Positions 4,451-57,702 of a DNA stretch of 64,000 nucleotides are shown here, piece after piece (the stretch's first letter is position 1; the number at the start of each line of letters is the position of its first letter). The stretch is from Spirosoma aerolatum (GTDB lineage Bacteria > Bacteroidota > Bacteroidia > Cytophagales > Spirosomataceae): NCBI RefSeq assembly GCF_002056795.1, contig NZ_CP020104.1:1251001-1315000 (forward strand), in the 5' to 3' direction. Position numbers and translations under genes: made by a program. Below the pieces are notes generated by a model, which made no database searches, was not told the DNA's origin, and was given only the letters and a program-made list of their open reading frames with translations.

Positions 4451-4466
4451 CTCTATCATCATGCCA
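4451..4466 (-). promoter_or_regulatory. Candidate sigma-54-type -24/-12 promoter
   Basis: On the minus strand the site reads TGGCATGATGATAGAG. The -24 half (TGGCAT) fits sigma-54 well; the -12 half keeps only the G of TTGC. It lies 38 nt before the start codon at 4414 and 53 bp downstream of the tandem dyads at 4519-4556. The case rests on shared geometry with three other loci rather than this match alone. Confidence 0.4.
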
Positions 4467-4518
4467 AGAGTGTATTGGCTTGTTAATCAATTTGTTCGCT
4501 ATATATGAAGAAATTGAA

Positions 4519-4556
4519 TGTCCGAAATCGGACAAAACGCTGTACGCCAGTGGACA
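4519..4556 (-). promoter_or_regulatory. Tandem-dyad operator/UAS, copy 1
   Basis: The first dyad is TGTCCG-AAAT-CGGACA (4519-4534), a perfect 6-bp inverted repeat. The second is TGTACG-CCAG-TGGACA (4541-4556). Starts are 22 bp apart, about two helical turns. The same pair occurs upstream of three other minus-strand units. It looks like two adjacent dimer sites for one transcription factor. Confidence 0.6.
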
Positions 4557-4562
4557 AAGGGC

Positions 4563-4628
4563 TGGGTGCTAAGAGCGTGGTGTATGGCGTAGTAAACCAG
4601 CCGCCAGGCACCATGCTCCCAACTCCCA
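4563..4628. repeat. Imperfect palindrome next to the permease B stop
   Basis: Arms 4563-4589 and 4602-4628 pair with several mismatches; the best core is GAGCGTGGTG with CACCATGCTC. It lies 5 nt beyond the stop codon of the permease at 4634. The words (GAGC[AG]TGGTG) recur in the palindromes at 7058-7110 and 60123-60175. Confidence 0.65.
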
Positions 4629-4633
4629 ACTAT

Positions 4634-7018
4634 TCACTCGTTCCGTAAACTCTTCACAGGATTCATCAGGGCGGCTTTGGCGCTTTGAAAACTGATGGTC
4701 AACAGGGCGATGACGACGGCTAACAGGCCCGCCAGCGCAAACAACCACCAAGACAAATTAATTTTATAGGCGAAAGACTGGAGCCAGCTATTCATGAAAT
4801 AATAGCCGACGGGAATGGCTACTAGCATCGCAATCAGAACTAGCTTCAGAAAATCGGTCGATAGCAGCGTCATCAAACTCATTACCGAGGCACCCAGCAC
4901 TTTTCGGATGCCAATTTCTTTCGTTCGCATTTCGGCCGTAAATGTAGCCAGCCCAAACAAGCCCAGACAGGAGATCAGAACCGCAACCAGGGCGAAGGCA
5001 TTGAACAACGTAGCCGTGCGGGCTTCGGTTTTGTAAAGTCGATCAAATGTTTCATCCAGAAATGTGTATTCCAGCGGACGGCTCGGTACCAGCTCGGTCC
5101 AGATTTGCTGAATAGCTTTAATGGCGTCGGCCTCTTTGCCCGGTACAATTTTTACGTAAATACCACTGCGCCAGCCCGGATTGTTGAACATCACCAGCGG
5201 ACTGATTTCTTCGTGTAGGCTTTTGAAATGAAAGTCCCGAACAACGCCGAGTACGACCCCTTTCGATCCCTGAAAATGGAAACGCTGACCAACAACGGGC
5301 TTGTGTAGCTTAAATTTTCGGACGGCCGCTTCGTTCAGAACAACATTATGCTCGTCGGCCGTATTATTTTCGGCAAACCAGCGTCCTTCGGCCATTTTTA
5401 GGTTGAATACGTTCTGGTACGAAGGCTCGACCGAAATCTGGCCGACGGTGGGCTGAAAATCGGCCGGGCGGCCATCCCAGTCGAGGCTCCCACTATGGGC
5501 GCTTTTGATTTCCACAATGTTCTGGCTGGCAATGGTCGCTTCTTTAATGCTGGAATGTTGCAGGAGCTTGCTTTTCATCACTTGTGGATCGACCTTGGGC
5601 TGAACTCCCCAGGGAATGGTAAGCGACAGAATGTGATCGCGGTCGTAACCCAGTTTTGTGGTGCGAATGAACTTGATTTGATAGTAAACGACCAGCATGG
5701 CGATCAGGAAGGCAATGGAAATCGTGAACTGAACAACCACCAGGCTTTTGCGGAACAGGCTGTTGGTCGATCCCAGCACATTGAGGCCCCGTATGGCCCG
5801 GACGGGTTGAAACGACGACAGGAGCACCGCCGGGTAAATGCCGGTCAGAACGATAGCGGTCAATATAGTACCAACCAGAACTACCCACAACGAGGGGTTT
5901 CCAAAATGGATGGAAAAGGATTTGTTGGTCAGGCTATTAAATACAGACAGGAAGCTATAGGTACATACCAGCGCAATCCCCAGCGCTACCGCACACATCA
6001 GAATAGATTCCAGCATAAACTGGGCAAATAGTTGCGAATGACCGGCCCCGATGATCTTTTTTACCCCCACTTCTTTAGCTCGAACACTGGCCCGGGCAGT
6101 CGTCAGATTCACGTAATTGATACACGCCATAAGCAGAATGGCCAGGGCCAGCCCAAAGAAAATGTAAACGGTCCGTCGGTCGCCCTGTTCACTGCCGTAT
6201 CGATCGACGGTGTCGAAGTGCATATCGGTCAGGGCTTCCAGTTCGAGGGTGATGCTGGTATCAGGTTTCTTAGTTTTTTCGTCTGGCTTGGCCACCTGAA
6301 CGATTTGGGTTAGTTTTTTGCTGACTTTTTTCGCATCGGCTCCGGGGCGGAGAACCACGTACGTTTCGTAATTGAAATTGTTCCAGTTGTTCTCATTTTT
6401 ATACGTGTCCGGATTCGAAAGGTGGGCCGATAAAGGGATCAGACAATCATACTGAAAACTCGAGCTGACCGGGTTATCTTTAAAAACAGCCCGTACCACA
6501 TAATCCAGCGTATCGATACGGACCAACTGCCCAACGGCTTTAGCTGAACCAAACAGCTTGGTAGCTTTTGATTCGGTTAGGGCAATGCTACGCATGTTGC
6601 GATTAAAATCGGTCAGGTTACCATCGACAAGCGCGTAATCGAATACTGAAAACCAATTTTCATCGACACAGGCGACCTTCGGTTCCTGAATCAATTGGTC
6701 ACCAATTTTCATCGTCAGGCCGTTCCAGAAGGGCTTGGAAAGGCGGGTGATTGTTTCCACTTCGGGCAACCGCCTGGCCAGTTCTGCCAGCGGTAAGGGC
6801 GTTGTGGACCAGTGCCAGGTTTCTTCTTTATTAACCTGATTATGGCTGATAATCGGATAGGTACGGGCCGATTTGGCGTGATAACTATCAAAACTTAACT
6901 CGTTTTGTACCCATAGCAGAATAAGCACCGATGCCGCCATTCCGACAGCAAGACCTGTTACGTTCAACAAACCAAATAGTTTGGTTTTTAGGAGATTACG
7001 AATAGCAAATCGAAGCAT
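4634..7018 (-). CDS. Double-FtsX (MacB_PCD) ABC transporter permease B
   Basis: 794 residues, ATG at 7018. Predicted helices lie near residues 20-38, 284-303, 335-357, 377-400, 424-445, 672-692, 720-742 and 755-778, with periplasmic domains at about 45-280 and 450-670. Coupling motifs are RAKEVGVKKIIGAGHSQL (about 313) and RTKEIGIRKVLGASVMSL (about 698). The C-terminus is NPVKSLRNE. The N-terminus is shorter before the first helix than in most copies (MLRFAIRNLLKTKLFG). The second periplasmic domain carries the GVVRDFHFKSLHEEISPLV signature seen across the set. It starts 94 bp after the permease C stop, with a palindrome between, and probably sits in a C-B unit on the minus strand. Confidence 0.95.
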   Translation of the reverse strand: MLRFAIRNLLKTKLFGLLNVTGLAVGMAASVLILLWVQNELSFDSYHAKSARTYPIISHNQVNKEETWHWSTTPLPLAELARRLPEVETITRLSKPFWNGLTMKIGDQLIQEPKVACVDENWFSVFDYALVDGNLTDFNRNMRSIALTESKATKLFGSAKAVGQLVRIDTLDYVVRAVFKDNPVSSSFQYDCLIPLSAHLSNPDTYKNENNWNNFNYETYVVLRPGADAKKVSKKLTQIVQVAKPDEKTKKPDTSITLELEALTDMHFDTVDRYGSEQGDRRTVYIFFGLALAILLMACINYVNLTTARASVRAKEVGVKKIIGAGHSQLFAQFMLESILMCAVALGIALVCTYSFLSVFNSLTNKSFSIHFGNPSLWVVLVGTILTAIVLTGIYPAVLLSSFQPVRAIRGLNVLGSTNSLFRKSLVVVQFTISIAFLIAMLVVYYQIKFIRTTKLGYDRDHILSLTIPWGVQPKVDPQVMKSKLLQHSSIKEATIASQNIVEIKSAHSGSLDWDGRPADFQPTVGQISVEPSYQNVFNLKMAEGRWFAENNTADEHNVVLNEAAVRKFKLHKPVVGQRFHFQGSKGVVLGVVRDFHFKSLHEEISPLVMFNNPGWRSGIYVKIVPGKEADAIKAIQQIWTELVPSRPLEYTFLDETFDRLYKTEARTATLFNAFALVAVLISCLGLFGLATFTAEMRTKEIGIRKVLGASVMSLMTLLSTDFLKLVLIAMLVAIPVGYYFMNSWLQSFAYKINLSWWLFALAGLLAVVIALLTISFQSAKAALMNPVKSLRNE

Positions 7019-7057
7019 AGGGAAGGAGGTTAAAAAAGCGAGGAGCAGGGGGCATGG

Positions 7058-7110
7058 AGCGCGGTGCGGGGAGCAGGGATTGTTTTACTCCATGCTCCCC
7101 ACACCATGCT
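7058..7110. repeat. Imperfect palindrome next to the permease C stop
   Basis: Arms 7058-7079 and 7089-7110 pair over 22 bp with a few mismatches around a 9-nt loop. The right arm ends 2 nt before the stop codon at 7113. Words GCGGTGCGGGGAGCA and TGCTCCCCACACCATGCT match the style of the 4.6 and 60.1 kb palindromes. Confidence 0.75.
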
Positions 7111-7112
7111 AT

Positions 7113-9975: not shown

Positions 9976-12360
9976 TTATTCCGTTTTAAGTGATTTAACT
10001 GGATTCATCAAGGCAGCTTTTATACTTTGGAAACTGACGGTAGCCAGGGCAATAACGGTAGCAATCAGACCGGCCAGTAGGAAGAACCACCAGGCAAGCT
10101 CGATCTTGTAGGCAAAACTTTGCAGCCATTGATTGGCAATGTACCAGGCAACCGGTGTAGCCACGACGATTGCGATGAGAACCAGCTTGAGAAAATCCTT
10201 GCTCAGCAAGGCGACAATACTCGCCACCGAAGCGCCCAATACTTTCCGAACACCAATCTCTTTCGTCCGGGCTTCAGCGGCAAAAGCAGCCAGCCCAAAC
10301 AAGCCCATGCAGGCAATTAATACGGCCAGTATAGTAAAGGTAAGTAAGACATGTCCCTGTTTTTGCTCGGCCTGATACTGTTGGGAGAAGTTCTCGTCCA
10401 GAAAATGGAAGCTTAACTCCGCATCGGGGTCAAATTTCTGGTAAACCGACTGGATATAAGCCAGTGCTTCGGTTGTTTTGGCAGGCCGAATGCGCACATA
10501 CAGATTATCTTTTTGATCAGGAGCGGGCATTTGCAACACCAGTGGCTCAATTTTATGCTGGAGCGAGTACGTATGGAAGTCCTTGACAACGCCGATCACC
10601 CGTGCTTCAACGGTTTGATCTTTGCCCAGGAAATACTTGACTCGCTTACCCACCGGATGCTGCCACCCCAGCGTTTTGGCCAGGGTTTCATTCACAAGCA
10701 CCGCGCCAAACCCATCACTGATCGACTCGGTAAAGTTGCGACCGTCCAATAGTTTGATTTGCATTGTATTCAGGTAATCGGCATCGACCTGGAACGTTTG
10801 AACGACCTGCGTGCTCGTTGGCATGATACCATTTTGCTCGAAAAACATGCCATTGGTGCCGATGTTGTTGTTGCCAATCGGATTGGTGGCGGCCGATACC
10901 TGCTCAATCAGCGGACTTTTTCGCAGCTCTTCTTTCAACGATTGAATCTGTTTGCGGACGCCCTGATTATCCAGATGGAAGGTTAATACTTGGTCTTTAT
11001 TGAAGCCCAGGTCTTTATGCAAAAAATAACCCATCTGACGGTAAATAACCCACGAACAGGTAATCAGGACAACAGCCGCAACGAACTGAAACACAACCAG
11101 TGCTTCGCGGAATCGGCTGCCGCCGAGTTTCGTCCCCAGCCGTCCATTGAGAGCTATTACCGGCCGGAAGCCGGAAAGAAGAAATGCCGGATAAAGACCA
11201 CTGCCAACGCCCAGCAAAACGGTAAATGCCATCAGCACCAGACCCGTAGCCACAGGGCCATATTGACTTAACGTCAGCGATTTGCCTGCCAGGTCATTGA
11301 ACAGAGGTAAGGCTGACTTGGCTACTATTAGTCCGACCAGACTAGCTAGAAATGCCATCAGCATCGACTCGGTCAGGAACTGGCTTATCAACTGACCACG
11401 ACGGGAGCCAATTGCTTTCCGAACGCCTACTTCGCGGGTACGGGCAATAGATCGGGCGGTGTAGAGGTTGACATAGTTGATACCGGCAATCAGTAAAATC
11501 AGGGCAGCCACCACGGCAAAGGTATAAATGGTGGTACTGTTGCCGTTTGGACTAAGTTCGTAATCCAGGTGCGAATGCAGGTGAATGGAGGTTATGGGCT
11601 GTAACTCCATCCGGTAGGTTACGTCGCCCATTTCCCGTTTAAGGTATTTGGGGAAGAACGAAGCCAGTTTAGGTTCCAGCGTTTTGTAATCGCTGCCTTT
11701 GGCTAGCAGCAAGTAGGTATACAGCTCAAAATTCTGCCAGCCGTTGGTATAATTGTCGGGTAGCGAACGCAGGGCACTGAATTGTAAATGTGAGTTGGAC
11801 GGAGTATCCTCGATCACCCCTGTCACCTTGTTGGGAAAGTGGTTGCTGAATTCAATTGTCTGTCCAACGGCTTTAGCGGCATCGCCAAACAGTTTTTCGG
11901 CCAGGCTTTTGGTCAGAACGATACTTTGCGGCTGCGTGAGGGCGCTGGCTGGATCGCCGTATAGAAACGGGAAGGAGAAAACGTCGAAGACCGTTTTATC
12001 GGCAAACATGATGTCGCCAACGTCCAGTTTTTTATCCTTGTACGTGATCTGTCCACCTCCTTCGGGATGAATGCGTACGGTTTTTTCAATGTCAGGGTAT
12101 TCGGCCTTTAGCGCGTCGGCAAAAGGGGCAGATGTAGGTGCCAACTGGAGGTTACCACCGGGCCAGTTCGCATAGTGAACGACCCGAACAATCCGGTCGG
12201 CATGGGTATGAAAACGGTCGTAGCTGAGTTCGTGAATGATGTACAGGCTCATCAGCCCGACAGCCGCCAGACCAATCCCCATGCCTACAACGTTGAGACT
12301 ACTAAACAGGCGGTTTTTCCAAAGATTCCGCAGTGCGATTTTGAGGTAGTTTCTGATCAT
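9976..12360 (-). CDS. Double-FtsX (MacB_PCD) ABC transporter permease D
   Basis: 794 residues, ATG at 12360. The first periplasmic boundary reads HELSYDRFHTHADRIVRV. Coupling motifs are RTREVGVRKAIGSRRGQL and RTKEIGVRKVLGASVASI; the C-terminus is NPVKSLKTE. The second periplasmic domain carries GVVKDFHTYSLQHKIEPLV. It is the first gene behind one of the four tandem-dyad plus sigma-54-like promoter regions, with the -12 element about 36 nt before the start codon. Transcription leftward would run through the antisense Uma2-like gene into permeases C and B, so a D-C-B unit is possible, though the 500-bp gap between D and C makes this uncertain. Confidence 0.95.
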   Translation of the reverse strand: MIRNYLKIALRNLWKNRLFSSLNVVGMGIGLAAVGLMSLYIIHELSYDRFHTHADRIVRVVHYANWPGGNLQLAPTSAPFADALKAEYPDIEKTVRIHPEGGGQITYKDKKLDVGDIMFADKTVFDVFSFPFLYGDPASALTQPQSIVLTKSLAEKLFGDAAKAVGQTIEFSNHFPNKVTGVIEDTPSNSHLQFSALRSLPDNYTNGWQNFELYTYLLLAKGSDYKTLEPKLASFFPKYLKREMGDVTYRMELQPITSIHLHSHLDYELSPNGNSTTIYTFAVVAALILLIAGINYVNLYTARSIARTREVGVRKAIGSRRGQLISQFLTESMLMAFLASLVGLIVAKSALPLFNDLAGKSLTLSQYGPVATGLVLMAFTVLLGVGSGLYPAFLLSGFRPVIALNGRLGTKLGGSRFREALVVFQFVAAVVLITCSWVIYRQMGYFLHKDLGFNKDQVLTFHLDNQGVRKQIQSLKEELRKSPLIEQVSAATNPIGNNNIGTNGMFFEQNGIMPTSTQVVQTFQVDADYLNTMQIKLLDGRNFTESISDGFGAVLVNETLAKTLGWQHPVGKRVKYFLGKDQTVEARVIGVVKDFHTYSLQHKIEPLVLQMPAPDQKDNLYVRIRPAKTTEALAYIQSVYQKFDPDAELSFHFLDENFSQQYQAEQKQGHVLLTFTILAVLIACMGLFGLAAFAAEARTKEIGVRKVLGASVASIVALLSKDFLKLVLIAIVVATPVAWYIANQWLQSFAYKIELAWWFFLLAGLIATVIALATVSFQSIKAALMNPVKSLKTE

Positions 12361-12393: not shown

Positions 12394-12409
12394 AACAAAT
12401 ACACGACCA
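12394..12409 (-). promoter_or_regulatory. Candidate sigma-54-type -24/-12 promoter for permease D
   Basis: On the minus strand it reads TGGTCGTGTATTTGTT, with GG and the -12 TTG at sigma-54 spacing (consensus TGGCACG-N4-TTGC). The -12 G is followed by T instead of C. It lies 66 bp downstream of the dyads and about 35 nt before the start codon. Confidence 0.45.
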
Positions 12410-12474
12410 AATCTTTTTATTAGAGTTATGCTATTGACTGTCAGTGGTATAACTTGTTGGATATTGAACATCTT

Positions 12475-12511
12475 TGTCCGCAAACGGACGCCCAGTTGTC
12501 ATTTACGGACA
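12475..12511 (-). promoter_or_regulatory. Tandem-dyad operator/UAS, copy 2
   Basis: The first dyad is TGTCCG-CAAA-CGGACG (12475-12490). The second half-conserved dyad ends in TTACGGACA (to 12511); only its GGACA half is intact. The dyad starts are 21 bp apart. Same order and spacing as copies 1, 3 and 4. Confidence 0.6.
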
Positions 12512-21218: not shown

Positions 21219-21833
21219 TCACTTCCCACTCTTCGGTATACCAATCTCTTTTTCAATCCGCTCGATAAGCTGTTGCCGTTCCTGCTGCGACTTGTCGCGG
21301 GCGTTGAGCGTGCGTTCGTAGGTGATGTCTTCACCGTCTTTCTGGAATCGGTAGCGCAGGAATAGTTTGCCCGTCTCCGAATCGTAATTCACCTCTTTGG
21401 TATACGGATTCTTCCCGCCAACAGCTACAGCCTGACTGTTACCATTACTACTGGTTATCATCGGTCCATCGCTACTGATGATCGTGACAGACTCACTGCC
21501 ATCAAAACGAGGAGGTTTGGGCGCTTTAGGGGCCTTGGGCGCTGCAGGAGCAGCTATACTCATTGCAGGCTCGGTGGGTGGAATCGGTGGTTCAGGTCTG
21601 CTGATGTGCAATGAGTCCAGAATGCGTTCGCGAAGGGCGTTGCGTTCGGCAAGATTTAAACCCGACACATTAAAACTCCGGTCGTAGTCGATCTTTTGCC
21701 CATCGACTGTACCGTTTACACGAATTGAGAGGGTCTTCTCATCGTCGTTAATGCTCGTGCTGAGCGACGAATGTTTCTGCGCCATAGCCAATGAGCTTGC
21801 CAGCGCCAGTAGGATTGTGATATGTGTTTTCAT
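21219..21833 (-). CDS. Small secreted protein, paralogue of the product at 3785-4414
   Basis: 204 residues with signal peptide MKTHITILLALASSLAMAQ. It shares the N-terminal LSIRVNG...YDRSFNVS block and the C-terminal GKLFLRYRFQKDGEDITYER, ARDKSQQERQQLIERIEKEIGI block with the product at 3785-4414. The middle carries a Pro/Ala/Lys-rich run (PAAPKAPKAPKPP, about residues 95-110), a likely flexible linker. The start is only 32 bp behind the permease H stop, so H and this gene form a two-gene unit behind a dyad-type promoter. The function is unknown; I infer an exported accessory to permease H. No lipobox was seen. Confidence 0.8.
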   Translation of the reverse strand: MKTHITILLALASSLAMAQKHSSLSTSINDDEKTLSIRVNGTVDGQKIDYDRSFNVSGLNLAERNALRERILDSLHISRPEPPIPPTEPAMSIAAPAAPKAPKAPKPPRFDGSESVTIISSDGPMITSSNGNSQAVAVGGKNPYTKEVNYDSETGKLFLRYRFQKDGEDITYERTLNARDKSQQERQQLIERIEKEIGIPKSGK

Positions 21834-21865: not shown

Positions 21866-24274
21866 TTATTCCGATTTAAGTGATTTAATAGGGTTCGTTA
21901 ACGCGGCTTTCACACTTTGGAAACTGACCGTCAACAGGGCGATCAGGACCGTTAGGCCACCGGCCAGTACAAACACCCACCACTGAATGTCGGTGCGGTA
22001 GGCAAAATCCTTTAGCCAGTTGTGCATGGCGTACCAGGCCACCGGCGACGCAATCACCAGCGCGACCAGTACCAGCTTCATAAAGTCTTTCGAGAACAGG
22101 GCGACCAGACTGGCTTCCGACGCGCCCAACACTTTTCGAATGCCAATTTCTTTGGTACGGGCTTCGGCCATAAACATCGACAGCCCAAACAGACCCAGGC
22201 ATGAAATTAGGATGGCGATACCCGAAAACACGCTGAACAGGGTTTGCTGGGTTTGCTCGCGTGCATAGAGCCGATCAAAGCGTTCGTCCAAAAATTTGTA
22301 ATCGAACGGTTGCTGCGGAAAGAATTGCTTCCAGACCGACTCGACCCGTTGTACCGCTTCGGGCGTGTTGCCTTTGAGTGGAATCGACAGCCAGTTAAGT
22401 TGTCCAGGCCGCAGAATCATCGCCAAAGCCGCCATTTGCTGGTGCAGGGATTCAAAATGAAAATCTTTCGTAACACCGATAATCTGCCCTTTAGCCGGTC
22501 CATACTGAAATGGTTTGCCAATTGCCTGCTCAGGTGTCCAGCCGAGTTGCCGAACGGCGGTTTCGTTCAGAATAACCATCGCCGTGTCGGTCGAGTAAGA
22601 GCGGGCAAAGTTTCGCCCGGCAGCCATGCTGATCTGATAGGCTGGAATAAAATCGTAATCGACGCTTAGCCCCCGCAGGTTGATTTTGACGGGTGCCATT
22701 GTGTCGCCTTTCATGGCCATAGCCCCGTATGAATCCAGCAAGCGTCCCGACGGTATCCGCGATGAGCGACCCAGATCACGCACAAAGCCGGTCTGAACCA
22801 GTTGCTGTTTCAGCGTTTCGTAATTGGTCGTCGAATCGCCTACATCGCGGAGAATCAACACCTGATCTTTGGCGTAGCCCAGTCGATAATTCTGGATGTA
22901 TTTCATCTGGTTGTAGACTACGGCGGTGCTGATAATCAGAACAATGGCGATGGAAAACTGAGTGATCACCAGCACCTGCCGCAGTTTGCCACTCCGTACG
23001 GTTGAGGCAATTTGACCTTTCAGTACACCCAGTGGCCGGAACGAAGTCAGGAAAAAAGCGGGATAGCTACCAGCTACCAGCCCTGTCAGAAGCGTAATGC
23101 CAACCAGAACGGCCAGAAAAACCGGATTCAACAGTTGGCTGAATGAGAGTTGCTTGTTGGTGAAATCGTTGAGTGCCGGTAATCCCAGCATAACCAGAAA
23201 GACAGCCACCCCGAGTGCAAACAGAACCAGTACCAGAGATTCGCTCAGGAATTGACCAATGAGCTGGTTGCGCAAGGCCCCTACAACCTTGCGCATACCA
23301 ACCTCTTTGGCTCGCCCCGCCGAACGAGCAGTGGCCAGATTCATATAATTGATGCAGGCAATCAGCAAAATGAATAAACCGATAGCCGAAAAAAGATAAA
23401 TGTAGGTAATGTCGCCCGTGGGCTCTACTTCCGAATCGGTATGTGAGCGTAAGTGAATGTCCGTCAGCTTTTGCAGGTTCAGCACCGACCAGGTAGACGC
23501 CTTGCGGCCTTCTTCGGGCGGTATATGCTTGTCCTGAAAGGCCGGGAAAGCGCCTTCAACCCGTGCGGGGTCCGTATTGGGCTTCAAAAGAACATAGGTG
23601 TTGAAGGAATTGTTGCTCCAGTTGGTCCGTAAACCTTCGGCTCCGTAAATTCGGTTGTCGTTCAGGGTCGAGAACGAAATCAGAAAGCCGGGATGGAAAT
23701 GGGCCTGAGTAGGTAGTGGTTCATATACACCTGTAACAGTCAGGTCGAACTGGTTATTGAATCGAACCGTCTTGCCCACGGGATTTTCGCTGCCGAAATA
23801 CTTCGTCGCCATGGGCCGGGAGAACATGATCGAAAACGGATTGACCAGCGCCTGATCAGGATTGCCACTAACCATGTCGAAATCAAGTACTTTAAACAAA
23901 TTCGCTTCGGCCAGAAAAATGTCCGGCTCATTGAACGAATGTTCGCCAACGCGTAACAGACCATTGCTTAGATCCAGCGTTCGGACGACTTGCTCGGCTT
24001 CTGAAAAATCCTGTTTGATTAGGGGGCCAAAGGGCGGTGCGGCCTGCGCCAGTTTCAGCGAGGGTGATCCGTCCGATGTAAGGAAAGTTCGGGTAAGCCG
24101 GTAAACCCGGTTGGCATTCGTATTATAGCGGTCGTAGCTGAGTTCGTCCTGTACATACAGAGCGATGAGCAGAAAACACGCTAATCCAACGGCTACTCCA
24201 ACAATATTGATGAAACTAAACGTTTTGTGCTTCTGCAGATTACGAAAAGCGATTAGCAAATAATTGCGTAGCAT
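21866..24274 (-). CDS. Double-FtsX (MacB_PCD) ABC transporter permease H
   Basis: 802 residues, ATG at 24274. N-terminus MLRNYLLIAFRNLQKHKTFS and DELSYDRYNTNANRVYRL. Coupling motifs are RAKEVGMRKVVGALRNQL and RTKEIGIRKVLGASEASL; Glu in the second replaces the usual Val, an acidic change next to the presumed ATPase contact. The C-terminus is NPIKSLKSE. The signature GVTKDFHFESLHQQMAALA lies between the second periplasmic domain and the last helices. It is the first gene of a unit preceded by tandem dyads and a sigma-54-like element (-12 about 33 nt before the start) and followed by the secreted protein at 21219-21833. Confidence 0.95.
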   Translation of the reverse strand: MLRNYLLIAFRNLQKHKTFSFINIVGVAVGLACFLLIALYVQDELSYDRYNTNANRVYRLTRTFLTSDGSPSLKLAQAAPPFGPLIKQDFSEAEQVVRTLDLSNGLLRVGEHSFNEPDIFLAEANLFKVLDFDMVSGNPDQALVNPFSIMFSRPMATKYFGSENPVGKTVRFNNQFDLTVTGVYEPLPTQAHFHPGFLISFSTLNDNRIYGAEGLRTNWSNNSFNTYVLLKPNTDPARVEGAFPAFQDKHIPPEEGRKASTWSVLNLQKLTDIHLRSHTDSEVEPTGDITYIYLFSAIGLFILLIACINYMNLATARSAGRAKEVGMRKVVGALRNQLIGQFLSESLVLVLFALGVAVFLVMLGLPALNDFTNKQLSFSQLLNPVFLAVLVGITLLTGLVAGSYPAFFLTSFRPLGVLKGQIASTVRSGKLRQVLVITQFSIAIVLIISTAVVYNQMKYIQNYRLGYAKDQVLILRDVGDSTTNYETLKQQLVQTGFVRDLGRSSRIPSGRLLDSYGAMAMKGDTMAPVKINLRGLSVDYDFIPAYQISMAAGRNFARSYSTDTAMVILNETAVRQLGWTPEQAIGKPFQYGPAKGQIIGVTKDFHFESLHQQMAALAMILRPGQLNWLSIPLKGNTPEAVQRVESVWKQFFPQQPFDYKFLDERFDRLYAREQTQQTLFSVFSGIAILISCLGLFGLSMFMAEARTKEIGIRKVLGASEASLVALFSKDFMKLVLVALVIASPVAWYAMHNWLKDFAYRTDIQWWVFVLAGGLTVLIALLTVSFQSVKAALTNPIKSLKSE

Positions 24275-24305: not shown

Positions 24306-24321
24306 CCCAAATGCCGTACCA
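24306..24321 (-). promoter_or_regulatory. Candidate sigma-54-type -24/-12 promoter for permease H
   Basis: The minus strand reads TGGTACGGCATTTGGG, the best of the four: TGG, ACG and TTG all sit at consensus positions of TGGCACG-N4-TTGC, with G instead of the final C. It lies 53 bp downstream of the dyads and about 33 nt before the start codon. Confidence 0.5.
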
Positions 24322-24373
24322 GAAAGGTAACTTGTTGGCTGTTAAATACTTGCGTTTTATGCCTGTTCGTAAA

Positions 24374-24410
24374 TGTCCGTTTATGGACGTGATAAGTTCA
24401 GTTACGGACA
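24374..24410 (-). promoter_or_regulatory. Tandem-dyad operator/UAS, copy 3
   Basis: The first dyad is TGTCCG-TTTA-TGGACG (24374-24389). The second (24395-24410) keeps only its right half, TTACGGACA, as in copy 2. The dyad starts are 21 bp apart. Confidence 0.6.
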
Positions 24411-27033: not shown

Positions 27034-27313
27034 GGTTGAAATAGGTATTTCTAGTCAGTCGATTCACGATTTATAACTAGCTTAATACACGATAAGTCTC
27101 ATCTTGTTGGTAGTGGACGCTCGGTAGAAATGAGCTAATCTTATGGGAAAATGGTTGATCATAGCTTCAAATTTTGCCCTAATACGGGTTTTGTCTAATT
27201 TATTTTAATTAATCAGGTTATTTTTTAAAAAAATTTATTTTGTTTTAGGTAATTAAAAAAATATATTAATATTGTCTCTCATTAACCTATTTGAAGATTT
27301 AACAGATTTTTCT

Positions 27314-30628: not shown

Positions 30629-30642
30629 ATCTTACTGCAATC

Positions 30643-32247: not shown

Positions 32248-32297
32248 TTAGTACAACTGCAATAGATAAGCAGCTTACTAAAAATGGATTAGGTTAT

Positions 32298-32384
32298 TTT
32301 TTGTCATGCTGACGAAGGAAGCATCTTCGGAAGTAGGATATAAGGTTATCTCCGAAGATGCTTCCTTCGTCAGCATGACAAAAA
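32298..32384. repeat. Perfect palindrome, dispersed CATGCTGACGAAGG family, copy 2
   Basis: Arms 32298-32331 and 32351-32384 are exact 34-bp complements with a 19-nt loop and T/A-rich outer ends. The sequence CATGCTGACGAAGGAAGC matches copy 1 at 12.6 kb. It lies between the convergent susD and VCBS genes and could act as a two-way terminator, though it is much longer than needed. Confidence 0.9.
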
Positions 32385-32484
32385 CGCCTTTATTGTATAC
32401 TATAAACTGTTTATTATTAAGGAGTTATAGTTAAGTTAGAGTAGGTTTGGTTAAGTATAAGAAATAGGTAGGTCATTGGCCTGC

Positions 32485-34047: not shown

Positions 34048-34080
34048 TCGGCAATTCGTTTACAGAAAATAAGAAGAAAA

Positions 34081-35316: not shown

Positions 35317-35525
35317 ATACGTTAACGACTCCTTCCTAAAGCGGTCGTTCAATTAGAAGCGAACAAGTCCTGTACTTATAAGACATAAGCGTGCCATTTC
35401 TATTGATAAACTCAAAAAACTTACCAATTGCATAATGTCGGGCAGCAATTATGGCATTTCATTAACATAGTTAATAAATATTTTTCTTAATAAGGTCGTA
35501 TTTTATAAAAAATTTAAAATCTCGG

Positions 35526-35533
35526 TATCTTTG
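35526..35533 (+). promoter_or_regulatory. -7 element TATCTTTG of the glycosidase operon
   Basis: It fits TAnnTTTG and lies 23 bp before the GTG start at 35557, in the gap divergent from the ROK repressor. No TTG is found at -33; the upstream DNA is AT-rich (35461-35520). Any ROK operator should lie nearby but none could be picked out by eye. Confidence 0.4.
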
Positions 35534-35556
35534 TTCTATCTCATCTTGACAAAAAA

Positions 35557-36714: not shown

Positions 36715-36737
36715 CCCAACTCCCGGCAGAAAATACG

Positions 36738-38198: not shown

Positions 38199-38229
38199 CT
38201 TTATTTTGGTCCTTGATATTTAATCAGCA

Positions 38230-40782: not shown

Positions 40783-40866
40783 AAGGCTATAGCATCCAGG
40801 CCAAATTACTGTGATGTGTGAATACTTGCCATCACAAAAAAAGGGAACTTCTATACCTGTATTCTC

Positions 40867-43155
40867 ATGAGTCGATTGTCTTTCCTGTGTCTTGCCCTAC
40901 TGTTTACCATTCATCTGCAGGCTCAGGACTTTACCCGGCGGTATCCCCTTATCCCATACCCCACATCGCTAACACCCGCGTCCGGGCAATTCACCATAAC
41001 CACTCAAACCGCACTGGTTGTTGAGGACAGTCGATTTACTGCTGAAGCAGGGCAGTTGCAGGAGTTGATGCAGCAGGGACTAGGAAAGCGGCTGCCAGGA
41101 AAAGGCAAAGGACCCAAAATTGTGCTCCAATACGACCCGACTAGTTCCGCGTCGGAAGGGTATACGCTACAGATCAACCCACAGCAGATAACGCTGAAAG
41201 CCCGTCAGCCTGTCGGGATGTTTCGGGCTATTCAAACCATCCGGCAACTGTTGCCTGTAGCGATTGAAGGACGGCCCAGCACGTCGATGTCATTGCCACT
41301 GCCAGCGGTTCAGATTCAGGATCAACCAGCCTATGCCTGGCGAGGCATGCACCTCGATGTGTCGCGCCATTTCTTTTCAATGGCTTATTTGCAGAAATTC
41401 ATCGACCGGCTGGCGTTGTATAAGTTTAATACGTTTCATCTGCACCTGACCGACGATCAGGGTTGGCGACTGGAAATCAAGGCCTATCCTAAACTGACGA
41501 GTGAGGGCGCCTGGCGAACCTTCAATAATCAGGATTCGGTTGTTCTGAAACGGGCTATCTCTGACTCTGATTTTGACCTGCCAGAGCAATTTATTCGCCA
41601 GCAGAATGGCCAGACGCAGTACGGTGGATTTTATACGCAGGCCCAAATGCGCGACCTGATTGCCTATGCAGCCGCTCGACACATCACCATTATTCCGGAA
41701 ATCGACATGCCCGGTCACCTGACGGCCGCCATTAAGGCATATCCGTTTCTGAGTTGCACGGGCCAGGTAGGCTGGGGGAAAACATTTTCTGTACCAATTT
41801 GTCCCTGCAACGAGCCGACCTATACGTTTATGGAAACGGTGCTGAGCGAAGTGATGGCTCTGTTTCCCAGCGAATACATACATATTGGAGCCGACGAAGT
41901 GGAAAAATCGACCTGGACGCAATCGCAGGCTTGCCAGGAATTGATGAAGCGCGAAAGTATTCAGAATGTAGAGGAATTGCAGAGCTACTTCGTCCATCGG
42001 ATTGAACAATTTGTGCAGTCGAAGGGGAAAAAGCTGATGGTCTGGGACGATGCCCTTGAAGGTGGACTCAAACCCTCTACAGCCGTTATGTACTGGCGTA
42101 GCTGGGTGAAAGATGCTGCCCAGAAAGCCGCCCGGAACGGAAATGATGTGGTGATGACGCCCGTCAGTACCCTCTATTTCGATAGCCCACCCGGCATCCG
42201 GTCGGTCGAGAATGTGTATAATCTGGCGGTAGTGCCTCCGGGGGTTACCACCGAGCAAACGAAGCAGTTTCTGGGCGCACAGGCCAACATCTGGACGGAG
42301 TATATTTCTACCGAGAACCGGGTCGATTATATGAGCATGCCTCGGATGACGGCTCTTTCAGAAGTAATCTGGACAGGCAAAAATGATTTTTCATCGTTTC
42401 AGAAACGACTTTTGCCGCACTACCTGCGTATGGAAAAAATGGGAATCCATTACCGATTGCCCGACCTAACGGGTTTTGCCGAAGAGAATGTTTTTGTCGA
42501 TCAGGCTACGCTTCGCATCAAAAAGCCGCTGGACAGTTATACGCTACGCTATACCACCGATGGTTCGCAGCCGCAGCCAGGCTCACCGGAACTACCCATG
42601 GGGTTGCTCATTACCAAACCGCAAACGGTTAAGGTAGCGGCTTTTACGCCATCGGGGGTGCGTGGCGATGTCTACAGCTTACGGTATCAGCAGCAGGCTT
42701 ACGCAACGCCAGTTTCGGTGGTTCATCAACAGGCTGGCTTACAGGGTAGTTACTTCAAGAAGTATTTTAAAGAAACGAAACTGATGAAGCAGCAGAGAGC
42801 CGACAGTACCTATACGATCAGCAATCTGGTGGTACCAAAATCAGTCAATGCGCCTAGATTCGGTATCCAGTTTCGGGGGTATTTAACCGTACCCGAAACA
42901 GGTGTTTATAGTTTCTTCTACACCTGCGATGATGGCGGTATCCTGCGCATTGCCGACCGAATGGTGGTGGATAATGATGGTAACCATTTCCCTATCGAAA
43001 AAAGTGGACAAGTGGCTTTACAAAAAGGCGCTCACCCATTCGAAGCGGATTTTATCGAAGGTGGTGGCGGCTTTACGCTGAAATTGAAATATAGTCTGAA
43101 CGGCTCCGAGCCAATGGATATTCCCGATAGCTGGTTTACGCACTACTTGGATTAG
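40867..43155 (+). CDS. Secreted GH20 beta-N-acetylhexosaminidase with C-terminal CHB/PA14 modules
   Basis: 762 residues, signal peptide MSRLSFLCLALLFTIHLQAQ. The N-terminal GH20b-like domain (about 25-155) precedes a TIM barrel with AWRGMHLDVSRHFFS (about 160), HLHLTDDQGWRLEIK, IIPEIDMPGHLTAA and HIGADEVEKSTW (about 345, catalytic Asp-Glu). Then come a chitobiase-type module (YTTDGSQPQPGSPELP, about 562) and a PA14-like domain (GVYSFFYTCDDGGILRI, about 680) that may bind sugar. The enzyme removes terminal beta-GlcNAc/GalNAc. It is the last gene of the operon, 84 bp behind the esterase, and is followed by a strong hairpin. Its stop faces permease I. Confidence 0.95.
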   Translation: MSRLSFLCLALLFTIHLQAQDFTRRYPLIPYPTSLTPASGQFTITTQTALVVEDSRFTAEAGQLQELMQQGLGKRLPGKGKGPKIVLQYDPTSSASEGYTLQINPQQITLKARQPVGMFRAIQTIRQLLPVAIEGRPSTSMSLPLPAVQIQDQPAYAWRGMHLDVSRHFFSMAYLQKFIDRLALYKFNTFHLHLTDDQGWRLEIKAYPKLTSEGAWRTFNNQDSVVLKRAISDSDFDLPEQFIRQQNGQTQYGGFYTQAQMRDLIAYAAARHITIIPEIDMPGHLTAAIKAYPFLSCTGQVGWGKTFSVPICPCNEPTYTFMETVLSEVMALFPSEYIHIGADEVEKSTWTQSQACQELMKRESIQNVEELQSYFVHRIEQFVQSKGKKLMVWDDALEGGLKPSTAVMYWRSWVKDAAQKAARNGNDVVMTPVSTLYFDSPPGIRSVENVYNLAVVPPGVTTEQTKQFLGAQANIWTEYISTENRVDYMSMPRMTALSEVIWTGKNDFSSFQKRLLPHYLRMEKMGIHYRLPDLTGFAEENVFVDQATLRIKKPLDSYTLRYTTDGSQPQPGSPELPMGLLITKPQTVKVAAFTPSGVRGDVYSLRYQQQAYATPVSVVHQQAGLQGSYFKKYFKETKLMKQQRADSTYTISNLVVPKSVNAPRFGIQFRGYLTVPETGVYSFFYTCDDGGILRIADRMVVDNDGNHFPIEKSGQVALQKGAHPFEADFIEGGGGFTLKLKYSLNGSEPMDIPDSWFTHYLD

Positions 43156-53741: not shown

Positions 53742-53761
53742 AGCATCCTGCCCTATGTACT

Positions 53762-56203
53762 TTATTCACTGCGCAAACTTTTCACCGGATTCATCAACGC
53801 GGCTTTGATACTCTGAAAGCTGACGGTGACTAACGCAATACCAACGGCTACCAGTCCGGCCAGAGCAAACATCCACCATTCGATGTCGATTTTATAAGCA
53901 AAGTCGGCCAGCCACTGATTCATGGCCCACCAGGCAATCGGACTGGCGATCAGAATAGCAATCAGGACGAGCTTCAGAAAATCTTTGGAGAGTAAACCCA
54001 CAATGCTGGTGACACTGGCCCCCAGTACTTTCCGAACGCCAATCTCTTTAGTGCGCTGCTCGGCCATAAACGCTGCCAGCCCAAATAGACCCAGACAAGC
54101 GATCAGGACAGCCAGCATGGCAAATGTGAGGGCGATGGTGCCAACGCGCTGTTCAGCCCGGTACATCTCGTCGAAGCTTTGATTCATAAACTGGTAGCTG
54201 AAGGGCTGTCCGGGAGCCAGCTGTTTCCATTTCGCTTCAATCTGGCGTACCAGTGCGGGGATGTCGGCCCCACTTAGCCGGAACGATACCGCTCCCGAGT
54301 TTGAATCCAGAACAAGCGATAATGCCCCGATATTTCGCCGGAGCGATTCGAAATGAAAGTTTTTAACAACCCCAACAATCGTGTATGTCTTGCGGGTTTT
54401 GCCTTCCCCATCATTGAATCGCCAGACGCGCTTACCAATAGGGTCTTTAAAGCCCAGGATTTTTATGGCCGCTTCATTCAGGATAATCCCCGAGGAATCA
54501 GAACCAAACTGCCGCGAAAATTCACGGCCTTTCACCAGTTGCATCCCCATCGTTTTCAGGTAATCGTGATCGACTCCCCAGGTTTGCATGCTAAACCCTT
54601 TGTTCATATCGGTCTGACCTTCCGCAAAGTAGGCATTGTCGTTCCGGTTGGATGGCGTCGGCAGATAGCCCGATATACTTCCGCTCAGTACGCCGGGTAA
54701 CCGCAATACTTCTTGTTTGAAGGTTTCGGCCTGTTTGCCAATAGCATACGCATCGTTGATAGTCAGGACCTGTTCGCGGTTAAAACCAACATTTTTCGTC
54801 TGGATGAACGTAATCTGCCGATAAACGATGATAGTGCCTACAATCAAAATGACCGACATCATAAACTGAAACACGACCAGTCCGCTCCGTAAACTCGCAC
54901 TACTGAAGCCAGCTCCCATTTTCAATGCTGATAAGCCGCCCTTCAGCACTTTTATTGGTTGAAACGATGACAGGAAAAAGGCAGGGTAACTTCCGGCAAC
55001 CAAGCCCACAACAAACGGCAGCAGAATAAGTACCGGCAACAGATAGGACGAAGCCAATTGGTTGATGGTTAACTCCTTTGCCGAAATGGTATTGAAACCC
55101 GGTAACGCCAGTGCAACAATGAAAACGGCCAGTACCATCGCCAGCGCTGATGTCAGTACTGATTCCGTCATAAATTGCCCGATGAGTTGCTGCCGTTCCG
55201 AACCCATCACTTTCCGAACGCCCACCTCCCTGGCCCGATTGGCCGAGCGGGCCGTAGCCAGATTCATGAAGTTGATGCAGGCAATCAGCAGAATAAAGAG
55301 CGCTACCGCCGAGAAAATATATACGTACTGAATGTCGCCGTTGGGAGCCAGTTCAATCTGCTGTTTTGAGTACAAGTGAATGTCGGTCAGGGGCATCAGC
55401 CAATACCGGACACTATTGCCTGCTTTCCGGAATTCGCCTAAACTCTTGCCAATCATCTGTTGTACCTGGGGGCCTACGTATTTTTCGATAACGGCATCGA
55501 AATTCTTCGCAAAAGCCGCTGGGTCGGTACCGGTTCTGAGCAGTATATAGGTATAATGGTTATTGCTGAGCCATTGCCCCCACGGATAATCATCACTGAG
55601 CATGGTTGGGATGAGGTCGGCATGGAAATGGGCATTTTTCGGCATGTCGCGCATAACGCCCGATACTTTAAACGTCAGCCGGTTGTCCAGAAGTAGCGTT
55701 TGACCCATCGGGTTCTGATTACCAAAGTGCCGTTTTGCGGCTGATTCACTAATAACAATCGTATTAGGTTCGGCCAGCGCCCGTTTCGGATCACCGGAAA
55801 TAAGTGGTAAAGTAAAGACATCGAACAACGTAGAATCGGCAAACGTAACGTTGTCTTCGCGCAGATTGGTGGTTTCGCCCGCTCGTTTTACCAGCCATGT
55901 GCCACGCTGGTGCAACCGAACGTATTGCTCAACCTGCGGATAGTCTTTTTTGAGGGTAGGGCCTACGGGATCGGGCGAAACGGCAAACCGCATATCGTTG
56001 CCGCCAAATTTAATGTCGGACTGAACCCGGTAAATCCGGTCGGCCTTTTCGTTGTATCGGTCGTAACTGAGTTCATCCAGCACATAGAGGGTTATGAGCA
56101 GACAGCAGGCCAGCCCAACCGCCAGGCCAAAGATATTGATAAAGGCAAAGCCCCGTTGTTTCTGCAACGTTCGCCAGGCGATTTTGAGATAGTTCGTTAG
56201 CAT
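53762..56203 (-). CDS. Double-FtsX (MacB_PCD) ABC transporter permease K
   Basis: 813 residues, ATG at 56203. N-terminus MLTNYLKIAWRTLQKQRGFA and DELSYDRYNEKADRIYRV. It shares with permease G the extra segment before the second helix (YVGPQVQQMIGKSLGEFRKAG, RYWLMPLTDIHLYS). Its last 60 residues are nearly those of permease M (IAWWAMNQWLADFAYKIDIE here, IAWWAMNQWLADFAYRVNIQ in M), hinting at sequence exchange. Coupling motifs are RAREVGVRKVMGSERQQL and RTKEIGVRKVLGASVTSI. It starts 7 bp after the DUF2911 gene stop, so both lie in one transcript, behind the fourth dyad promoter. Confidence 0.95.
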   Translation of the reverse strand: MLTNYLKIAWRTLQKQRGFAFINIFGLAVGLACCLLITLYVLDELSYDRYNEKADRIYRVQSDIKFGGNDMRFAVSPDPVGPTLKKDYPQVEQYVRLHQRGTWLVKRAGETTNLREDNVTFADSTLFDVFTLPLISGDPKRALAEPNTIVISESAAKRHFGNQNPMGQTLLLDNRLTFKVSGVMRDMPKNAHFHADLIPTMLSDDYPWGQWLSNNHYTYILLRTGTDPAAFAKNFDAVIEKYVGPQVQQMIGKSLGEFRKAGNSVRYWLMPLTDIHLYSKQQIELAPNGDIQYVYIFSAVALFILLIACINFMNLATARSANRAREVGVRKVMGSERQQLIGQFMTESVLTSALAMVLAVFIVALALPGFNTISAKELTINQLASSYLLPVLILLPFVVGLVAGSYPAFFLSSFQPIKVLKGGLSALKMGAGFSSASLRSGLVVFQFMMSVILIVGTIIVYRQITFIQTKNVGFNREQVLTINDAYAIGKQAETFKQEVLRLPGVLSGSISGYLPTPSNRNDNAYFAEGQTDMNKGFSMQTWGVDHDYLKTMGMQLVKGREFSRQFGSDSSGIILNEAAIKILGFKDPIGKRVWRFNDGEGKTRKTYTIVGVVKNFHFESLRRNIGALSLVLDSNSGAVSFRLSGADIPALVRQIEAKWKQLAPGQPFSYQFMNQSFDEMYRAEQRVGTIALTFAMLAVLIACLGLFGLAAFMAEQRTKEIGVRKVLGASVTSIVGLLSKDFLKLVLIAILIASPIAWWAMNQWLADFAYKIDIEWWMFALAGLVAVGIALVTVSFQSIKAALMNPVKSLRSE

Positions 56204-56210
56204 AAGAAAG

Positions 56211-57320
56211 TCAGTTAATAACGGGTTTTCCTTCGTTGATGGCCTTTATCATAGCCTCTACGTTTGTTTTGTTCAGGGCATTCGGTGCCTGTGGGAGTGC
56301 CGCCTGTAGATACGGCAATGCCTCTTTGGGTTTTCCCAGGGCCACTAACGCACGACTCATGCCCAGATTTGTCGTAAACTGATTCGGGTTTTTGTCGTAG
56401 TTGGTTTTGAAAACCGCATAGGCTTCCTGATTCCGTTTCTGAGCCAGCAGGCTACGGCCGTATTGATGCAACTCGTTGAGTGTGCCCAGAGGCATAGCTT
56501 CTTTCATAAGCGCCGTGGCTTCATCCGTTTTGTTGATCGCAGCCAGGATAGACGCTTTCGTATGTAACGTCTGAAAATTCTTCTGCCCAATGTAGCGGGC
56601 ATTAATGGCTTGATCGGCCCAAATGAGGCCCTGGTTCAGATCATGACTGGTTTCCAGGCAATAGGTGGCTGCCTGTACCAGCGATTGCCAAGTAAAGCCG
56701 GGTTTGGAAAGCAATTCTTTGCGGAATGACGCCATCTGCTGGCCCACCAGATCGACGCTCACTGTAAACGGGATCATACGTTTTTCCCACGACAATGCCA
56801 CGGCTGCTGAGCTATCGGTCTGGTTCACGAACGAATACGTAAGCAGTTCAACCGATCGGTCGAGCGGCTGATTTTTTACCGTAACCTTGAGCACATCCAG
56901 GGCGGGGTCGTAGTAAAAGCTGCCCCAGGAGACGACGATTTTGGAGAAAATGACGGTGGTTTCCTCCTCGCCCAGGTTCATAAATAACCCATAGGTTCCG
57001 GCTTCGAGTGGTTTACCTTCCACCTTCACATCGTCTGAAAAGGTAATCGTTGTGGTTTCGTTGGCACCCGCTCGCCAGGGAGCGGGTTTGCCAGGACCGT
57101 AGCCCAGATCCTGGAAGCCATAGTGGGCAATGGGTGTTCCCCAGATTTTTCCTTCGCGACCTTTCACCCCCGGCCGGTCGTAGTGGACCGTAACGGTTGT
57201 CAGGCCAATTTGCTCAGAGACCGATGCTTTTTTGTTGCCACCAATTGGCGGTGTCGTGAGTTGCGCCTGACACACCAGCGCATACACGAAAAGATAGACG
57301 GTGAGCGTAACGTTACGCAT
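56211..57320 (-). CDS. Secreted DUF2911 protein with C-terminal TPR-like repeats
   Basis: 369 residues from ATG 57320 (a TTG at 57332 adds four residues). Signal peptide MRNVTLTVYLFVYALVCQAQ. The DUF2911 domain (about 25-190) has VTVHYDRPGVKGREGKIWGT, PWRAGANETTTITFSDDVKV and PLEAGTYGLFM, the known block pattern. The rest (about 200-369) is helical with TPR-like repeats (ASILAAINKTDEATALMKEA, GRSLLAQKRNQEAYAVFKTN, NLGMSRALVALGKPKEALPY). DUF2911 has no known biochemical function. Here it is placed 7 bp from the following permease K, so they are almost surely co-transcribed. It is periplasmic, and may be a soluble partner of K's periplasmic domains, as I propose for the two secreted paralogues elsewhere. 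Confidence 0.85.
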   Translation of the reverse strand: MRNVTLTVYLFVYALVCQAQLTTPPIGGNKKASVSEQIGLTTVTVHYDRPGVKGREGKIWGTPIAHYGFQDLGYGPGKPAPWRAGANETTTITFSDDVKVEGKPLEAGTYGLFMNLGEEETTVIFSKIVVSWGSFYYDPALDVLKVTVKNQPLDRSVELLTYSFVNQTDSSAAVALSWEKRMIPFTVSVDLVGQQMASFRKELLSKPGFTWQSLVQAATYCLETSHDLNQGLIWADQAINARYIGQKNFQTLHTKASILAAINKTDEATALMKEAMPLGTLNELHQYGRSLLAQKRNQEAYAVFKTNYDKNPNQFTTNLGMSRALVALGKPKEALPYLQAALPQAPNALNKTNVEAMIKAINEGKPVIN

Positions 57321-57376
57321 AGGGACAAACAATGAGAGGAATTACAGATGGCGAATTGGCCGGGAATGACAGACCA

Positions 57377-57565
57377 TTAAATTTTTGTCGTGCCAGCCTG
57401 CCTGGTCGTATCTAAAGCCAGTGCTCCCTTTTTAGGCGTTAAACAGGATTGGGCTTTCTGCGTATCGGCTGTACTTGGGGGTTTAACCAGATAGCAAATA
57501 GCAATAATCAACAGCATACATAATCCTTTTAGGAACAGGCTAAGAAAGATTAGTTGTGCTTTCAT
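57377..57565 (-). CDS. Small hypothetical membrane protein
   Basis: 62 residues from ATG 57565: MKAQLIFLSLFLKGLCMLLI forms a hydrophobic N-terminus (one TM helix or an uncleaved signal), then a polar tail with two Cys (QSCLTPKK) and no recognised family. It is the first open frame behind the fourth dyad and sigma-54-like promoter, with the -12 element about 42 nt before the start, and precedes the DUF2911 gene by 56 bp. Its position matches a short leader gene of the operon. It could be a chance frame; no homologue is known to me. Confidence 0.45.
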   Translation of the reverse strand: MKAQLIFLSLFLKGLCMLLIIAICYLVKPPSTADTQKAQSCLTPKKGALALDTTRQAGTTKI

Positions 57566-57606
57566 CGTTCGGTTGTACGCAACAGGTAAGGCTGCGTAAG
57601 CCATAC

Positions 57607-57622
57607 CTCCAAGATTATGCCA
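57607..57622 (-). promoter_or_regulatory. Candidate sigma-54-type -24/-12 promoter
   Basis: The minus strand reads TGGCATAATCTTGGAG. The -24 half (TGGCAT) is good; the TTG of the -12 half is present but shifted by one base against the standard spacing. It lies 44 bp downstream of the dyads and about 42 nt before the ATG at 57565. Confidence 0.4.
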
Positions 57623-57665
57623 TATAGGTAATCGTTTGATTTATAATAGTTTGTCTTGCTGAGCG

Positions 57666-57702
57666 TGTCCGCTATCGGACAGAATTTGTACGGGGGTGGA
57701 CA
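57666..57702 (-). promoter_or_regulatory. Tandem-dyad operator/UAS, copy 4
   Basis: The first dyad is TGTCCG-CTAT-CGGACA (57666-57681), a perfect 6-bp inverted repeat. The second is TGTACG-GGGG-TGGACA (57687-57702), matching the second dyad of copy 1. The dyad starts are 21 bp apart. Confidence 0.6.

Follow-up and report, generated by a model that had tools for sequence, protein, structure and literature searches.

What coordinates the many permease genes that crowd certain Bacteroidota genomes is the question raised by a 64,000-nucleotide stretch of the Spirosoma aerolatum genome (positions 1251001-1315000 of a single-contig genome of 7.96 Mb; hereafter the window). This stretch sits within a cluster of 21 permeases of ~800 amino acids (aa) bearing MacB_PCD and FtsX domains (genome 1242585-1328928). 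The preliminary description of the window had noted tandem TGTCC-N6-GGACA dyads and a sigma-54-like promoter upstream of four permease-linked units, and had proposed that a sigma-54/NtrC-type regulon drives a subset of the permeases together with exported partners. Our analysis supports this proposal at the level of sequence: the dyads, their spacing and the promoter recur before permeases and their partners elsewhere in the genome, which also encodes sigma-54 and a linked candidate activator, the enhancer-binding protein (EBP) that we term EBP1. We put the probability that these elements are the enhancer and promoter of one sigma-54 regulon, with EBP1 as its predicted activator, at about 0.86.

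Direct reading of the window showed all four two-dyad elements where they had been described, all on the minus strand, with the -24 ends of their promoters at 4466, 12409, 24321 and 57622. Taking the gap as the distance between the promoter-proximal dyad and the TTGG of the promoter, and scoring each composite with the matrix described below, the four have the following anatomy: 1) The 4.5-kb element (score 36.9) comprises an exact proximal dyad (TGTCCGAAATCGGACA, 4519..4534), a second dyad with one mismatch 22 bp upstream (4541..4556) and, at a gap of 51, a -24/-12 element with a weak -12 (TTGGCATGATGATAGA, 4452..4467). 2) The 12.5-kb element (40.9) has its proximal dyad at 12475..12490 (TGTCCGCAAACGGACG on the plus strand), its second dyad at 12497..12511 (TGTCATTTACGGACA on the plus strand) and its -24/-12 element at 12395..12410 (TTGGTCGTGTATTTGT, gap 64); the second dyad is only half conserved and scores 7.1, a caveat on this copy. 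3) The 24.4-kb element (49.4) matches the tandem pattern with no mismatch, its dyads lying at 24374..24389 and, 21 bp upstream, 24395..24410, and its -24/-12 element at 24307..24322 (CTGGTACGGCATTTGG, gap 51). 4) The 57.7-kb element (48.9) combines an exact proximal dyad (TGTCCGCTATCGGACA, 57666..57681) and a second dyad 21 bp upstream, found by both the dyad and the tandem-pattern scans (57687..57702), with a -24/-12 element whose -12 part is shifted by one base (ATGGCATAATCTTGGA, 57608..57623, gap 42). The perfect motif TGTCCN6GGACA occurs only twice in the window (4519 and 57666); with one mismatch it occurs seven times, and six of these are dyads of the four elements, the exception being at 17273. 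An Rfam scan of the window returned nothing at gathering scores.

Outside the window the same element recurs. Seventeen sites, all lying outside the window, were used to derive scoring matrices for both dyads and for the promoter; their consensus is TGTCCg....cG.ACa, followed 21-22 bp further (start to start) by TGTCCg.ta.cGGACA and then by a.tTGGCa...caTTTG. With these matrices the window sites score 36.9-49.4, as against a maximum of 21.6 on both strands of the reversed control sequence; 19 stretches of 20 kb, placed arbitrarily in this genome, reach 18.4 at best. The matrix scan, like its reversed control, covered 603 kb of the 7.96 Mb, picked for permeases, EBPs and strict pattern matches, and gives a lower bound of ~25 copies, the four of the window included. 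Being palindromic, the dyads give scores on the other strand as well, with a promoter part below zero; such matches duplicate the elements in reverse orientation and do not enter the count. Across the whole genome, the tandem dyad pattern with up to two mismatches gave 42 rows (13 in the control), and with at most one mismatch it is found at 17 distinct places. At 16 of these 17 a TGGY-N7-TTG lies 20-100 bp off on one side, compared with 3.6% of random positions, and the single failure is the window's 57.7-kb site with its displaced -12. The combined promoter-plus-dyad pattern matched 15 times genome-wide and never in the reversed control. The genome-wide scan revealed a regulon of the predicted kind. 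Two rows with two mismatches (174344 and 5012064) were left out of the regulon, and an exact dyad at 783431 was kept out of it, its sole promoter-like match lying 88 bp away. A further candidate at genome 3395824 (score 39.9, gap 66, weak -12) came to light in a stretch (L209) that was chosen because the tandem-dyad scan had flagged that very position, and which is hence not an arbitrary placement.

The gaps of the 25 sites in this genome are not spread evenly: two sites have a gap of 42, sixteen of 51-54 and seven of 62-64. They share a phase on the 10.5-bp helical repeat (R 0.86), a value that 100,000 uniform draws over 39-67 never attained, although the statistic is optimistic in that some of the 25 sites belong to related operons. 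Much the same distances between dyad and promoter recur in other genera. These data bear on the reading that the elements arose by chance, or were passively copied along with upstream DNA as permeases duplicated, and have no regulatory function. The permeases are indeed paralogues standing in arrays, so that sites could be inherited by copying, and some patterns discriminate poorly: the exact dyad alone is a weak signal (16 sites against 12 in the control), and the first composite pattern tried gave 12 matches against 6. The clean signal comes from promoter and dyad combined, or from near-exact tandem pairs. However, away from the conserved bases, within the element and beside it, the sites differ in sequence, the element also precedes genes unrelated to the permeases (DUF3244-like, DUF4097 and AraC), it recurs in other genera and beside the regulator, and the helical phase is kept while the distance to the promoter changes; we regard a functionless origin as extremely improbable.

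The content of the regulon was delineated by chaining same-strand genes at gaps of at most 100 or at most 200 bp from 26 sites, namely the 25 above and one of a related type belonging to a second activator, EBP2 (see below). The genome has 119 MacB_PCD matches, of which the better-scoring ones (to E ~1e-14) correspond to 64 open frames; this count omits at least three weaker frames of ~400 aa (near 721352, 2760054 and 3703062) and one below-cut-off match (3011919). Depending on the gap limit, the 26 sites reach 31 or 36 of the 64 permeases: 24 or 27 of the 30 with ~900 aa, 6 or 8 of the 27 with ~800 aa, and 1 of the 7 others. In the window itself 3 or 4 of the 13 complete permeases are reached, in agreement with the earlier remark that the others there lack the element. 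The 4.5-kb site is followed by a 209-aa protein (3785..4414) with a signal-peptide-like N-terminus, judged by eye, and no Pfam family, and then, across an intergenic gap of 182 bp, by a ~800-aa MacB_PCD/FtsX permease (1242..3602) that counts as reached only under the wider limit. The 12.5-kb site leads a permease of the same type (9976..12360), as does the 24.4-kb site (21866..24274), whose unit continues with a 204-aa protein (21219..21833) that has only a below-cut-off Pfam match. Behind the 57.7-kb site, the first frame of at least 100 aa encodes a DUF2911/TPR protein (56211..57332) and the next gene another ~800-aa MacB_PCD/FtsX permease (53762..56203). All these genes are on the minus strand, and elsewhere in the genome, as in the window, the ~800-aa permeases led by sites are solitary or stand behind another gene.

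The regulon appears wider than could be seen from the window: it also takes in operons of a PadR-like gene and permeases, a unit for the adaptor and its ATPase, proteins resembling DUF3244 and a small number of further genes. One site leads an HlyD adaptor and an ABC ATPase (genome 1329509-1331496), another leads an ABC ATPase at 4.379 Mb, and four lead 124-aa proteins at four separate loci, three of these proteins being 59-72% identical to the fourth; when two of them were compared with the DUF3244 model of Pfam, one scored above and one below the cut-off. The remaining members are a 350-aa DUF4097 protein and an AraC-type regulator. The four 124-aa proteins (L065 5844-6218, L066 5889-6263, L067 5785-6159 and L068 5264-5638, all on the minus strand) have a signal-peptide-like start and are preceded by very similar sigma-54 promoters and tandem dyads; a relative carries a tandem trio of DUF3244-like genes (L254).

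Ten of the 25 units of this genome open with a PadR-like gene, each leading one to six ~900-aa permeases; Pfam assigns one of these genes to PadR, and the other nine share 50-66% identity with it. Inverted repeats are known targets of PadR proteins, and a PadR-like gene also comes first at 10 of 40 places compared in relatives, which would suit a reading of the dyads as operators of the PadR repressors encoded first in many units, near an ordinary or a sigma-54 promoter. Yet the same tandem dyads precede units that have no PadR gene, namely those of the window, the HlyD-ATPase unit and the DUF3244-like genes; a comparison of 22 EBP loci showed no match to PadR in any of them; and the fixed two-turn spacing of the dyads and their helical phasing to the -24/-12 fit an activator. 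Dyads acting as PadR operators seem very unlikely, and an activator of the NtrC family is the better candidate for their ligand.

The genome has one match for rpoN (Sigma54_DBD, E 1.1e-54). As to the activator, an NtrC-family regulator near a MacB-like locus had been anticipated, and one is found beside the HlyD/ATPase locus: EBP1, of 463 aa (genome 1333662-1335053), is encoded 18.7 kb past the window at the end of the window's permease cluster. It consists of a receiver, a sigma-54 AAA+ domain and a Fis helix-turn-helix, and adjoins the HlyD-ATPase unit, with one PMT_2 gene between EBP1 and the site of that unit. Its nearest named relatives are from Spirosoma species (88-89% identical). The candidate sensor kinase (450 aa, genome 1337731-1339083) lies 2.7 kb beyond EBP1. 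Among nine EBP-type genes of this genome whose C-terminal end was inspected and is helix-turn-helix-like (L028-L030, L032-L036 and L037/L038), only EBP1 and EBP2 end in R-x-ALYRRLEKFG; a further EBP-type gene (L031) ends without such a part. The gene of L037 and L038, at genome 1078644-1079143, is split over two reading frames.

The loci of EBP1 relatives show a similar organization. Scored with the matrix trained on Spirosoma, 39 of 80 such loci contain a site exceeding 24.3, the highest value of the reversed null. Twenty-nine of these sites are no more than 300 bp from the EBP start and on the divergent strand, and five are equally near but score best on the other strand; four (in three Spirosoma and Fibrisoma) lie ~2 kb off behind a PMT_2 gene, as in S. 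aerolatum, and one elsewhere. In Larkinella, Dyadobacter, Persicitalea, Emticicia, Chitinophaga and Ferruginibacter the site stands between EBP1 and an HlyD/ATPase/permease unit. Homologues of HlyD, the ATPase or both occupy the divergent side of EBP1 in 17 of 18 relatives (L128-L145, the exception being L131), and a homologue of the 450-aa kinase is found downstream of EBP1 in 13 of the 18, mostly adjoining it. At 40 hand-picked places in relatives, where the first gene after the best site was classed against reference proteins, this gene is a permease (13 places), a PadR (10), an ATPase (3), an HlyD (2) or a DUF3244-like protein (2), and at the other 10 it has no match among the reference proteins. 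In eight of these ten, the genes that follow include a homologue of HlyD (at no more than 24-25% identity), of the ATPase or of a permease, and no transporter was seen at the other two (L241 and L253); by Pfam, the unmatched first gene is an outer-membrane efflux protein in L229 and a DUF5916 protein in L264 and L265. The 40 include two places whose sites are no better than the null (L245, 17.8; L230, 24.3). On a contig labelled KSB1 (L153 ~774, minus strand) there is an EBP1 relative with a kinase, a similar tandem dyad and a good sigma-54 promoter, which suggests that the arrangement of EBP, kinase, dyad and promoter crosses phyla.

Across 101 genomes of the family (EBP1 match threshold E 1e-100), element matches are concentrated where EBP1 is well conserved. 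Where EBP1 is at least 62% identical, in 55 genomes, there are 447 matches (69 in the control); the 16 with an EBP1 match of 56-61% have 12 (control 6), the 16 with a best match of 44-53% have 15 (control 10), and the 14 without an EBP1 match have 2 (control 3). The rank difference persists among genomes of at least 5 Mb (51 vs 26, p ~1e-9). As a departure from this trend, in G381, a one-contig genome of 5.8 Mb with 9 element matches, the EBP1 match spans residues 1-268 only (G381:C1:5827588-5828403) and may be cut by the contig end.

The closest contender for EBP1's part is its paralogue EBP2 (466 aa, genome 3704216-3705616), encoded in a MacAB-TolC-like operon at 3.70 Mb. A regulon that depends on sigma-54 but whose dyads are bound by another EBP, mainly EBP2, or are cross-regulated by both, would accord with the 46% identity of the two proteins, the like kind of their recognition helices (RFALYRRLEKFG in EBP2, RQALYRRLEKFG in EBP1) and the association of EBP2, too, with a MacB-type exporter; an EBP2-like match is also present in many EBP1-bearing genomes of the family, so that the co-occurrence is compatible with a part for EBP2. 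However, the EBP2 operon itself has TGTGCGAAATCGCACA rather than TGTCCG, sites of the TGTCCG type adjoin EBP1 relatives, and element matches are few in the genomes whose best match is 44-53%. Hence we consider EBP2, alone or jointly, an unlikely occupant of these dyads, and EBP1 remains the preferred activator. The EBP2-type dyad stands with a good sigma-54 promoter at genome 3697940 (L047 ~1941), upstream of 3698038, and the operon behind it runs HlyD-TolC-ATPase-two permeases-EBP2-kinase.

A comparison of 33 hand-picked confident loci suggests that dyad and recognition helix were rewired by matched changes. The fourth base is C in 8 of 8 half-sites with the helix SRQALYRR and in 23 of 36 with SRAALYRR, and it is T or A in 56 of 68 with TRASLYRR; an exception is Ferruginibacter (L142), which has TRASLYRR with a TGTCCG dyad. 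We tentatively propose paired types: SR[QA]ALYRR with TGTCCG, TRASLYRR with mostly TGTTCG or TGAACG, and an EBP2 type with TGTGCG.

Several observations weigh against a single sigma-54 regulon under EBP1. In the window, the promoter part of the 4.5-kb site scores -1.2, with a poor -12. Between EBP1 and the kinase of S. aerolatum lie other genes, a desaturase among them. The loop by which EBPs contact sigma-54 is classically GAFTGA; it reads GAFTDA in EBP1, in EBP2 and in all 68 loops matched by script in the 80 relative loci. Of those loci, 41 lack a site above the null; in Fibrella (L131), EBP1 and the kinase are present, but the flank examined contains neither a site nor an HlyD/ATPase. Of the 55 genomes in which EBP1 reaches at least 62% identity, three (G304, G356 and G368) lack any pattern match, and the co-occurrence as a whole is confounded by phylogeny and genome size, shared ancestry not having been removed. 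In a scan of 295 genomes of the class with the strict TTTG pattern, five or more matches were found only in the three members of the own family, and outside the family there were 0-2 per genome, near the control level; the strict pattern is therefore uninformative there, and relatives outside the family have other -12 and dyad bases.

Taken together, what the sequence shows, namely the element, its promoter and phasing, the regulon membership and the synteny and co-occurrence with EBP1, suggests a mechanism. The 450-aa sensor kinase would phosphorylate the response regulator EBP1, which would bind both dyads, two helical turns apart, and assemble its AAA+ ring; from a fixed face of the helix it would then remodel sigma-54 RNA polymerase at the -24/-12, ~42, 53 or 63 bp downstream. 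The HlyD adaptor and the ABC ATPase would rise in step with many double MacB/FtsX permeases, often preceded by a PadR gene, and with some small, probably exported proteins. An ATPase domain is absent from the permeases tested, which probably use in common the ATPase and adaptor induced with them; following the examples of MacB and the darobactin exporter, they may export or extract envelope-active molecules. A still broader proposal, that one sigma-54 two-component switch co-induces an adaptor/ATPase core with dozens of interchangeable orphan permeases, and that this switch is old in Bacteroidota and was rewired by matched changes of helix and dyad, is offered tentatively, and we rate it somewhat below even odds.

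The regulon resembles the known NtrC-family systems ZraSR, GlrKR and AtoSC in its receiver-AAA+-Fis activator, upstream dyads and -24/-12 promoter, and by sequence the best solved relatives of EBP1 are ZraR and NtrC-type proteins. Unlike those systems, it has a TGTCCG-N4-CGGACA dyad, near-promoter sites placed in helical steps and permease arrays as predicted targets; EBP1 falls below the curated cut-off of each NCBIfam model among the best 25 of 66 matched. According to passages of PMC12316311, predicted sigma-54 promoters are enriched before COG0577 FtsX-type permeases in Bacteroidota and other phyla, which it describes as the first evidence of such a link. The same passages name no enhancer, activator or spacing rule for the COG0577 genes, and the words Spirosoma, UAS and "upstream activat" are absent from its main text. 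In a literature search that took in neither subscription journals nor preprints, we found, among the papers listed, no published report of the tandem enhancer, the phasing rule, the activator or the content of the regulon. Thus, the statistical link between sigma-54 and FtsX permeases is known, and what appears to be new is a regulon of a familiar kind that is well supported by sequence.

The permeases themselves show a duplicated architecture, with two stretches each of MacB_PCD and FtsX domains. They resemble ADOP (TIGR03434) in these two units, in a near full-length match (positions 5-7 to 803 of 803 in the 4 of 64 permeases tested) and in the PadR gene before many of the ~900-aa forms, but the same four score 286.5, 344.4, 228.0 and 267.2 bits (the last a ~900-aa permease), below the ADOP cut-off of 622.3. 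The darobactin exporter DarBCD is, judging by the model names, a precedent for a double permease with a separate adaptor and ATPase: DarC is the best-scoring named relative of the adaptor and DarD that of the ATPase, while DarB comes second among those of the permeases tested. All remain below the respective cut-offs (adaptor 203 of 450 bits, ATPase 280 of 375, permeases at most 152 of 700), and the one cut-off that the adaptor exceeds is that of the general RND_mfp model (162 bits against 95).

For the large arrays of orphan MacB/FtsX permeases in Bacteroidota neither function nor trigger is known, and a candidate activator with its DNA site and promoter rule offers a direct handle on them. 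The inducer of EBP1, once found, would make the substrates and the idea of a shared ATPase testable, and the system would supply a worked sigma-54 enhancer code for a phylum in which we found few such studies. If the broader proposal holds, a single stimulus would provide one and the same pump with a range of alternative permeases simultaneously.

The permease cluster also surrounds a glycan-use locus (window 27272-43155), which encodes a SusC/SusD-like pair, a GH18 protein, an alpha-L-fucosidase, an esterase-like protein and a GH20 protein, with FG-GAP and ROK genes on the opposite strand.

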